Shown here piece after piece: positions 2,424-30,674 of a DNA stretch of 42,048 bases. Numbering within the stretch: the stretch's first letter is position 1; every line of letters begins with the position of its first letter. Position numbers and translations under genes: made by a program. The DNA is from Eubacteriales bacterium (GTDB lineage: Bacteria; Bacillota; Clostridia; Oscillospirales; Butyricicoccaceae), in the NCBI GenBank assembly GCA_030524205.1, contig JAUNGZ010000021.1, positions 1 to 42,048 on the forward strand. The letters are read 5' to 3'. Under the pieces are notes generated by a model. That model did no database searches and had not been told where the DNA came from. It saw only the letters and a list, made by a program, of their open reading frames with translations.

Positions 2424-2571
2424 TCGATTGCGACCACGCTCGCAATCGAGGGACGCACTTCGGGCGAGGCCCGAAAGGGCTATTGCGCCCGAAACGCACG
2501 CGAATTTTGATTCGCGCGTGTTTCGGCCTTTGTATCAAATGACCGGGCGAAGCGCGGCCGTTTGATGAAAA
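2424..2571 (+). repeat. Structured interspersed element, copy A (candidate structured RNA)
   Basis: It begins 2 nt after the ClC stop codon and folds into four consecutive helices. Helix 1 is TCGATTGCGA/TCGCAATCGA (2424-2433, 2440-2449). Helix 2 is TTCGGGC/GCCCGAA (2459-2465, 2469-2475). Helix 3 is CCGAAAC/GTTTCGG with an inner CGCGAA/TTCGCG and loop TTTTGA (2489-2526). Helix 4 is ATCAAA/TTTGAT (2534-2539, 2561-2566), extendable on both sides. Unpaired GGGACGC, AGGGCTATTGCGCC and TTTGTATCAAA recur in copy B at 30384-30536, where the helices have different sequence but still pair. I do not recognise the family. Confidence 0.75.
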
Positions 2572-2592
2572 CCGCGTGGCGGTTTTCTATTT
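2567..2592 (+). terminator. Terminator hairpin directly after element copy A
   Basis: GAAAACCGC (2567-2575) pairs with GCGGTTTTC (2579-2587) around a GTG loop, followed by TATTTT. It would end the nucleotidyltransferase-ClC transcript, leaving copy A as its 3' untranslated region. Confidence 0.65.
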
Positions 2593-2630
2593 TAAATAGC
2601 GCTGCGGCGCGAGGGGGACGGGAGATTTTG

Positions 2631-27389: not shown

Positions 27390-28055
27390 TCAGCCCAGCA
27401 GGTACACATTTGCGTACTGGACGCCCAGCTCATACGCGCGGTCGTGGGAAGAAACACAAACGTCGATCTTGTTGCTCTTGATCGCTCCGCCGGTATCCTC
27501 GGCGATAAACACGCCGTAGCCTTCGATATAAACGCGGCTGCCAAGCGGGATTACCGAGCTGTCTACCGCGATCGTGCGGCCCTCGGTCATCGTGGTGCCG
27601 GCGGCGGTTTTACCGTCCGAACGGCCGTTGCAGACCGCGCAGGGGCAGTAGAAGGTCAGCTTGTAGTTGCCCAGCGAGGTGGCGTTGCTCTTGATCACGT
27701 CGGTCGCGGTCAGCGAAGAGGAATAAGCAACTGTTTTCGCGGACACCGGCGCGGTCAGAAGATCGTTGTACTGCGCTTTGGCCTCGGCCTTTTTCTTAGC
27801 CTCGGCTTCCGCCTTGGCCTTCGCCTCCGCTTCGGCCTTCTTCTTGGCTTCGGCTTCCGCCTTGGCCTTGGAGAGCGCCTGCTCGGCAGTCGAGATTTCA
27901 TCCGAGGTCAGCACCGTGCCGACCGAGGAGTTGAGGTTGGAAGAAAGTACGGCGGCCGGCTGATCCAGCGCGGCCGCGCCAACCGTTGCCATCGTGCTGA
28001 CGGCAAGCGCCGCGGCGATCAGCTTAGACGCATGCTTTCGCAAAGAAATGGACAT
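27390..28055 (-). CDS. Secreted 3D-domain (RpfB/YuiC-like) cell-wall protein
   Basis: 221 residues. Sec signal peptide (about 1-28), a short linker, then an Ala/Lys/Glu repeat (residues about 64-94, units of KAEAEAKAKAEAE type) that should form a charged helix, and a C-terminal 3D domain. The 3D domain has YKLTFYCPCAVCNG, GTTMTEGRTIAVDSSVIPLGSRVYIEG and the three defining aspartates in AVD, AEDTGG and KIDV. 3D proteins of the YuiC/YabE group are lytic transglycosylase-like or stationary-phase survival factors. Cysteine count is low outside the CPCAVC and VCVSS sites. TTTAGGAG lies upstream of the ATG. An unusually structured 5' leader precedes the gene. Confidence 0.85.
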   Translation of the reverse strand: MSISLRKHASKLIAAALAVSTMATVGAAALDQPAAVLSSNLNSSVGTVLTSDEISTAEQALSKAKAEAEAKKKAEAEAKAKAEAEAKKKAEAKAQYNDLLTAPVSAKTVAYSSSLTATDVIKSNATSLGNYKLTFYCPCAVCNGRSDGKTAAGTTMTEGRTIAVDSSVIPLGSRVYIEGYGVFIAEDTGGAIKSNKIDVCVSSHDRAYELGVQYANVYLLG

Positions 28056-30379: not shown

Positions 30380-30383
30380 ATTT

Positions 30384-30536
30384 TCGTTTGAAACGTACAG
30401 CTTCAAACGAGGGACGCCCTTCCGGCCTGCGGGCCGGAGAGGGCTATTGCGCCAGAAAACCCCCCAGAATTTCGATTCTGGGGGGTTCTGGCGTTTGTAT
30501 CAAAAGCACGGGCGGAGCTCGCGCTTTTGATGCAAA
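30384..30536 (+). repeat. Structured interspersed element, copy B (candidate structured RNA)
   Basis: It starts 5 nt after the RNase J stop. Helix 1 is TCGTTTGAA/TTCAAACGA (30384-30392, 30402-30410). Helix 2 is TCCGGCC/GGCCGGA (30421-30427, 30432-30438). Helix 3 is CCAGAA-(AA)-CCCCCCAGAA with TTCTGGGGGG-TTCTGG and loop TTTCGA (30452-30491). Helix 4 is a 14-bp stem with one G-T pair (30494-30507, 30523-30536). The unpaired GGGACGC, AGGGCTATTGCGCC (30440-30453), GAATTTYGATTC tip, TTTGTATCAAA and CGGGCGRAGC match copy A, while most helix bases differ and still pair. Confidence 0.8.
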
Positions 30537-30641
30537 GGGCAGGGCCATTTGCGGATTGGATGCGCCTGCGGGCGGGGATGCGGGGGACGGGGGGACGGTC
30601 GCACCGCCGCGGCGCGGAGTTGGACGGGGGACGGGGGCGAG

Positions 30642-30674
30642 GCTGCGCGTTGGTGGACAACGCGCGGCTTTTTT
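30642..30674 (+). terminator. Rho-independent terminator downstream of element copy B
   Basis: GCGCGTTG (30645-30652) pairs with CAACGCGC (30658-30665) around GTGGA, flanked by GC/GC and followed by TTTTTT. It would end the RNase J transcript, so copy B lies in that transcript's 3' untranslated region. The stretch 30545-30641 between holds only G-rich sequence. Confidence 0.75.

Follow-up and report, generated by a model that had tools for sequence, protein, structure and literature searches.

A probable modular hairpin-string repeat of Agathobaculum with paired stem changes and no G.U excess

The window, by which we mean the whole stretch of 42,048 nucleotides analysed here, contains two widely separated segments, copies A and B, that share their loops and linkers and differ in their stems. 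The question that they raise is whether this pattern denotes a functional RNA or a repeat that is copied as DNA. Paired changes rank as the strongest evidence that an RNA fold is functional, and the original prediction put the two copies forward as an unrecognised structured RNA or a mobile structured repeat. The observation is real, the family is larger than first noted, and an RNA role is possible. We nevertheless think it probable, by no means certain, that the element is a non-autonomous, modular, small interspersed hairpin-string DNA repeat of the genus Agathobaculum, which lies mostly 0-15 nt past stop codons.

The two copies and their family

The blocks common to both copies occur in the same order, with sequences as first described at 2424-2571 and 30384-30536: GGGACGC, AGGGCTATTGCGCC (identical in 14 of 14 letters), the GAATTTYGATTC tip, TTTGTATCAAA and CGGGCGRAGC. 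The stems that differ between A and B are each paired inside their own copy. The four helices of the original prediction are present, but the element is longer, with a fifth hairpin, a GCGCTGCGGCGC hairpin and a G-rich tail (Table 1); the GCGCTGCGGCGC motif was seen by eye 3' of many other copies too. Likewise, both of the copies first reported are genuine, but the same genome holds at least 73 distinct ones. Elsewhere in the window, four overlapping 48-nt repeats at 27766-27879, spaced by 18-24 nt, are probably a coding low-complexity stretch.

Table 1. Features of copies A and B in the window, and the terminator-like hairpin 3' of copy B
Feature	Position	Strand	Remarks
Copy A, H1 hairpin	2424..2449	+	TCGATTGCGA / TCGCAATCGA, loop CCACGC; begins 1 nt past the TAA of the CLC gene
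Copy A, conserved linker GGGACGC	2450..2456	+	
Copy A, H2 hairpin	2455..2478	+	ends approximate
Copy A, conserved block AGGGCTATTGCGCC	2476..2489	+	
Copy A, H3 hairpin	2490..2525	+	tip GAATTTTGATTC; outer stem freely variable among copies
Copy A, H4 hairpin	2533..2567	+	TATCAAATGACCGGGCGAAGCGCGGCCGTTTGATG
Copy A, H5 hairpin	2567..2587	+	terminator-like GAAAACCGCGTGGCGGTTTTC, then TATTTT
Copy A, H6 hairpin GCGCTGCGGCGC	2599..2610	+	G-rich tail next; by eye
Copy B, H1 hairpin	30384..30410	+	TCGTTTGAA.., loop region CGTACAG; begins 4 nt past the TAA of the RNase J gene
Copy B, GGGACGC linker, H2 and AGGGCTATTGCGCC	30411..30453	+	AGGGCTATTGCGCC at 30440-30453
Copy B, H3 hairpin	30454..30493	+	AGAAAACCCCCCAG..CTGGGGGGTTCTGG; ends approximate
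Copy B, H4 hairpin	30498..30532	+	
Copy B, H5/H6 and long G-rich tail	30533..30638	+	GGGGGACGG.., further hairpin; reaches the native terminator; by eye
Terminator-like hairpin, taken as native RNase J terminator	30639..30671	+	3' neighbour of the insertion, outside the element

The predicted fold of copy A (2421-2592) has a z-score of -5.0 and that of copy B (30380-30540) one of -11.4, with none of 200 shuffles equally stable in either case. The core AGGGCTATTGCGCC, with up to two mismatches, occurs at 46 places in the genome, five of them exact, and at 36 when the pattern is read backwards. Thirty of these places were fetched and 14 chosen as copies by eye; L006 and L013, near contig ends, were added later by model. 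Alignment A2 and model R1 consist of 12 of the 14, all from the window's genome and A and B included; the two omitted are L026, whose H4 is shortened, and L028, which has an insert. In these 12 copies, 34 of 49 consensus pairs turned out to be altered on both sides, far above shuffles (17.1, sd 2.3; reached by 0 of 500). Pairing is seen in 94.0% of cells, against 74.9% after shuffling and about 50% with the partner slid by one column, and the covariation score is 0.518, against 0.162 in shuffles and 0.08 and 0.15 with the partner slid by one column.

R1 scores copies A and B at 143.6 and 144.1 bits (E about 4e-37), partly by construction because both are in the 12-copy model. Only two other matches in the window reach E<=1, one of them on the reverse strand inside copy B (23.8 bits) and the other of 13 bits. 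Across the whole genome R1 has 134 matches at E<=1, a figure that also counts echoes from the reverse strand of these palindromes. Distinct, non-overlapping copies of at least 49.5 bits number 73 in 70 fetched loci of the 2.2-Mb genome, a minimum count that drops identical rows, one echo (L054:1616-1731) and all weaker matches.

Matches occur across the genus as well as in the window's genome. At E<=1e-5, R1 matches all 25 Agathobaculum genomes and none of 62 other genomes of the family. In five of the 25 (G002, G009, G010, G021 and G024) the best matches are weak (E 4e-8 to 4e-12), and the elements of these genomes may belong outside this subfamily. Among other families of the order, one of 23 genomes has a match, at E 0.009; in the class as a whole (391 genomes), matches at E<=1e-5 are confined to the genome of the window and two genomes of a single distant genus (33-38 bits). 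A wider distribution judged by the core pattern was rejected: eight of 11 hits in a contig collection lay outside the genus and were not confirmed by the model, and the three in Agathobaculum were. Carriage by phages or plasmids was rejected too, as the core pattern is absent in viral contigs and copy A (195 bases) has no match in the phage and plasmid collections.

That the element is unrecognised in Rfam holds at gathering thresholds. Rfam 15 finds only tRNAs in the window and nothing but a SAM riboswitch, lying outside the element, at eight loci that carry one; one match, to SpF66_sRNA, stays below the cut-off (34.3 bits versus 42). HEARO-type RNAs belong to families that Rfam covers. Among the matches listed in a literature search on Agathobaculum with palindromic or hairpin sequences, there was no account of the element. 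The SAM riboswitch (RF00162, 76 bits) lies on the minus strand at L119:853-956, near one copy.

Insertion, gene ends and exchangeable modules

The other half of the original prediction, a mobile structured repeat, is well supported by the number of copies, by sites empty in relatives and by exchanged modules. At the RNase J loci of 23 other genomes (one ends with the gene, so 22 are readable beyond it) and at the CLC loci of 22, the model finds no full element; the sole partial matches are a 34-nt H3-like stretch past RNase J in G021 (17.5 bits) and one in L154 (14.7 bits). By eye, RNase J in many relatives is followed by a short gap and then a terminator-like hairpin, and the window has such a hairpin 3' of copy B. 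Between the CLC and HAD genes, identified by Pfam, lie 11-48 nt in 16 of the 18 loci measured (out of 22) in relatives and 150-165 nt in the other two, compared with 208 nt in the window, where copy A occupies the gap. As judged from these loci, copies A and B are apparent insertions at sites that are empty in relatives. Inspection of the two window sites by eye showed no target-site duplications or terminal inverted repeats; the nearest relatives for this comparison are about 85% identical in RNase J, and exact element ends were not found in the copies compared.

Copies can also be kept in place. One stands before clpP (gene name by eye) in seven genomes, and copies kept in place across species hint at function. 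Behind what is apparently the same gene in the sister genomes G005 and G006 there are two quite different elements (L226 and L231), from which it follows that a site can be refilled or an element replaced.

The position relative to genes is far from random. Of the 73 own copies, 70 are testable (three are too close to a contig end), and 48 of them begin 0-15 nt past a same-strand stop codon that closes an ORF at least 100 codons long, with the H1 end towards the gene. Six adjoin an opposite-strand start codon with a Shine-Dalgarno-like stretch, and 16 do neither; by eye, a shorter frame ends ahead of several of these. Of 1460 positions drawn at random from these loci, 61 fall at stops and 86 at starts. 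The relatives' copies (n=40) are distributed similarly, with 30 at stops, 6 at starts and 4 at neither. In four loci (L054, L253, L246 and L124, the first two of which end the same gene), the final codons of a long ORF (157-340 codons), its stop included, double as the 5' arm of H1, and the 3' arm is complementary to them; no simple insertion model accounts for these coding-end arms. Copies also separate rpmJ from rpsM and pheS from pheT, names that we assigned by eye from the translations. These pairs usually form single operons, and if they do so here, the copies in them are not complete terminators.

From 5' to 3' the element reads, by eye, H1, GGGACGC, H2, GCTATTGC(GCC), H3, TTTGTAT, H4, H5, H6 and, in some copies, a G-rich tail, which makes about six short hairpins in about 200-250 nt. 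H1 is TCGATTG..CAATCGA or a variant with the loop CCACG or GTACA, the tip of H3 is AAT-N4-ATT, H5 is AAAAC-SGC..GCSG-TTTTC and H6 is GCGCGCTGCGGCGC (all by eye). Between a kept H1 and kept H4-H6, the middle may instead be AAAAGTTCCGACACGCGAAACTTTT or GACTTCTGCGCGCGCCC..GGGCACACTTGAAGTC, so that at least three middle modules can be told apart by eye. H1 also occurs solo, for example ahead of a gene reading as purM. Loci L050 and L091 have an identical H3, a nearly identical H4 and different H1 and H2, which argues that modules are exchanged.

Two observations on single modules may be added. In L058, L101, L104, L106, L115 and L117, a stretch of about 55 nt, GCCCGTAGGCCTCTATCC..GAGAGC with variants, lies within H4 or replaces it; it has GTAG and a hairpin, resembling a REP nested in the repeat. 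In G021, a solo-H3-like hairpin with a T-run follows RNase J (L159:1420-1453), as if a module had turned into a gene terminator.

Paired changes and the mismatch pattern

Over 50 copies, identity is 0.44 in the arms of H3, 0.67-0.71 in those of H1 and H4, and 0.70-0.83 in the linkers; the 5' arm of H3 has 47 distinct forms in 49 copies. As the arms of H1 and H4 are as conserved as the H3-H4 linker (0.70), free stem sequence is a trait of H3 above all. Compensation in H3 is nearly as complete for near as for distant copies. Where 1-3 of the 13 pairs differ (65 copy pairs), 0.67-0.79 of the differing pairs are Watson-Crick in both copies, and for copies that differ at 10-13 pairs the share is 0.82-0.84. 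Paired changes can also be followed in place between G005 and G006, where H1 of one element reads TCACGG/CCGTGA in one genome and TCGCGG/CCGCGA in its sister, and H1 of another differs as TCGCTG/CAGCGA versus TCGATG/CATCGA.

The loops of H3 give a further sign of events at the DNA level. The AAT-N4-ATT tip is readable in 65 of 116 copies, and in five of the 65 the loop is the exact reverse complement of one of the four commonest loops, a number reached by none of 5000 column shuffles. The turned loops CGAA (1) and CAAA (2), reverse-complement counterparts of TTCG (19) and TTTG (17), differ from these in every one of the four letters; CGCA (2), the counterpart of TGCG (6), differs in two. Loop turning as a general feature was rejected: H1 loops are never turned (CGTACAG 29:0, ACCACGCT 22:0), nor, by eye, is H4 of the GGGCNAAGC type. 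Template switching has been argued to cause paired stem changes, and rapid paired changes together with turned loops are what it predicts (PMC8794818). Paired changes are predicted by selection on the fold, too.

We therefore looked at mismatches, in registers set by Watson-Crick pairs alone. H1 (92 copies, 920 pairs, 2 rows skipped) has 12 A.C and 13 G.T, and H3 (66 copies, 854 pairs) has 35 A.C and 18 G.T, which adds up to 47 A.C versus 31 G.U. As a control, 30 tRNAs of the same genome (650 pairs), whose stems were drawn by a pairing-seeking program, have 46 G.T and no A.C; because the copies are related, the counts are not of independent events and the Fisher p of 2e-13 against the element is only a guide. 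The model by which copies were found rewards G.U, and this bias runs against the result of no G.U excess. With slightly different limits, the A.C/G.T counts are 7/12 for H1 and 24/7 for H3 in the own copies, and 7/4 and 12/12 in the relatives; the contrast between H3 and H1 of the own copies implies that one symmetrical process is not the whole story. All four stems of 50 own copies together hold 65 A.C, 46 G.T and 55 other mismatches, pairs with a mismatch as their commonest form being left out. In six sets of orthologous copies, 14 pairs have changed on both sides, with G.T at 17 and A.C at 4, a ratio biased to G.T because the structure was predicted with G.U allowed, omitting A.C pairs.

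The G.U excess that is typical of RNA helices is absent, so that the paired changes are also explicable by correction of DNA palindromes. The original prediction inferred selection on a fold from conserved loops combined with covarying stems; the paired changes are real, but with 31 G.U versus 47 A.C the step from them to selection is weak. The same split applies to the structured-RNA reading as such, which keeps the fold and the pairing statistics, but not the tolerance of G.U far above A.C. An RNA role at mRNA 3' ends is possible.

In the reading that we favour, a protein or nucleic acid would recognise the conserved loops and linkers once the single strand, be it DNA or RNA, has folded, and the stem sequence, chiefly that of H3, would be free so long as pairing holds. 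The arms would be kept complementary mainly at the DNA level, by template switching while the element is replicated or copied; one arm would be rewritten from its partner, and a loop might occasionally be turned round. Any effect of the terminator-like H5 on host genes would be a by-product or a later use. In its boldest form this is a tentative model, which may be right but has the odds against it: a mobile element at gene ends, recognised by its single-strand shape and loops, whose arms are rewritten at the DNA level when it is copied.

If this is true, DNA-level rewriting of arms gives textbook RNA-like covariation throughout a family without RNA selection, and the element is a natural counter-example for covariation tests. 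With its 70-odd copies, its well-paired, free H3 stems and no G.U excess, the family makes it testable how much covariation template switching can yield. It is also a genus-specific repeat at gene ends, in some cases in essential operons, and could influence how mRNAs end in a genus that is common in the gut.

Other explanations and known systems

The alternative that survives best, although we consider it rather unlikely, is a cis-acting RNA of mRNA 3' ends, be it a terminator, an exonuclease block or a processing site, in which selection on the folded RNA would drive the paired changes. As the copies are intergenic, and some lie between convergent genes, both strands might be selectable, which would favour neither G.U nor A.C. 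Such an RNA would fit the sense-orientation adjacency to stop codons, the terminator-like H5 of copy A (and, on the minus strand, a likewise terminator-like H1 at both window copies), the same-gene copies kept in several species, the strong pairing statistics and the biased 17 to 4 ratio of the orthologue sets. REPs are reported to lie for the most part downstream of genes and plausibly to be transcribed (PMC3733652). It would not fit the lack of G.U excess on either strand when all copies are taken together, the copies inside the usual rpmJ-rpsM and pheS-pheT operons and between CLC and HAD, the 6 of 70 own copies at a start codon of the other strand, or the two window sites that are empty in relatives.

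A family of trans-acting, structured non-coding RNAs encoded by many genes, which comes close to what was first proposed, is very unlikely given the copy number and the module exchange. The conserved unpaired stretches and the four helices with paired changes would suit it, as would one weak promoter-like site on the minus strand within copy B, but more than 70 copies stand beside different genes, modules are exchanged or replaced by alternative middle ones, no promoter-like site occurs in 2300-2700 around copy A, and the G.U excess is absent. Least probable of all is a REP-type or IS200/IS605-derived element moved by a Y1 (RAYT) transposase: the element is short, hairpin-rich and extragenic, with a GTAG-bearing insert in H4 of some copies, but this mobilisation is unsupported, since PF01797 has no match in the window's genome (G000), which is 81.9% complete and could therefore be missing the gene, and is positive in 4 of the 25 genus genomes, all of which have element matches.

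The DNA repeat that we favour can be set beside several known systems. Integron attC sites are marked by R'/R'' boxes and a nearby integron integrase; unlike them, the element's copies are dispersed and not in arrays. With BOX of Streptococcus pneumoniae and S. suis it has in common that it is small and interspersed, with exchangeable modules and predicted stem-loops, and a low rate of movement is reported for BOX (PMC3049150). The BOX-like build is apparent in the way H1 and H4-H6 recur, by eye, with at least three different middle modules between them, and in the swapped H1-H2. BOX has another host and, as far as it is described there, a different sequence, a distinction by description only (PMC3049150); in our element, moreover, H1 lies 0-15 nt past a stop in most copies, and the stem of H3 is almost wholly variable while its tip is kept. 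REP/RAYT elements are palindromic and extragenic, mostly downstream of genes, as the element is, but are given as 20-40 bp long (PMC3733652), as opposed to 150-250 nt here; the element copies inspected by eye have no GTAG/CGTC tag at their ends, and this genome no Y1 transposase. MITEs and ERIC/RUP-type repeats resemble the element in being non-autonomous, short and high in copy number (in part after PMC3049150). The element appears to differ from them in that each hairpin has its own inverted repeat, and by eye neither a terminal inverted repeat spanning the whole nor a target duplication was seen. Hairpins corrected by template switching share with it homogenised arms, loops that are sometimes turned and paired changes without stepwise intermediates; the cases described are in RNA and protein genes (PMC8794818), whereas here a dispersed repeat family is concerned.

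An autonomous partner was sought by way of single H1 and H4 hairpins at 12 places (two of them weak model hits), with 330 nt downstream of each; none was seen, nor was a mobilising enzyme found. What these places contain is short elements, H1 hairpins on their own and alternative middle modules. In G010 and G024 (e.g. L206-L212) there are many matches of about 118 nt and about 30 bits, probably a different repeat, and both genomes carry Y1 transposases; on account of that repeat this close pair was set aside as a source of a base-exact empty site. In two genomes of another family of the class, L295:1501-1652 and L296:1501-1652 contain a hairpin string of 33-38 bits with an H4-like GTATCAAAAG..CTTTTGATGAA part, which is either a chance likeness or a distant cousin.
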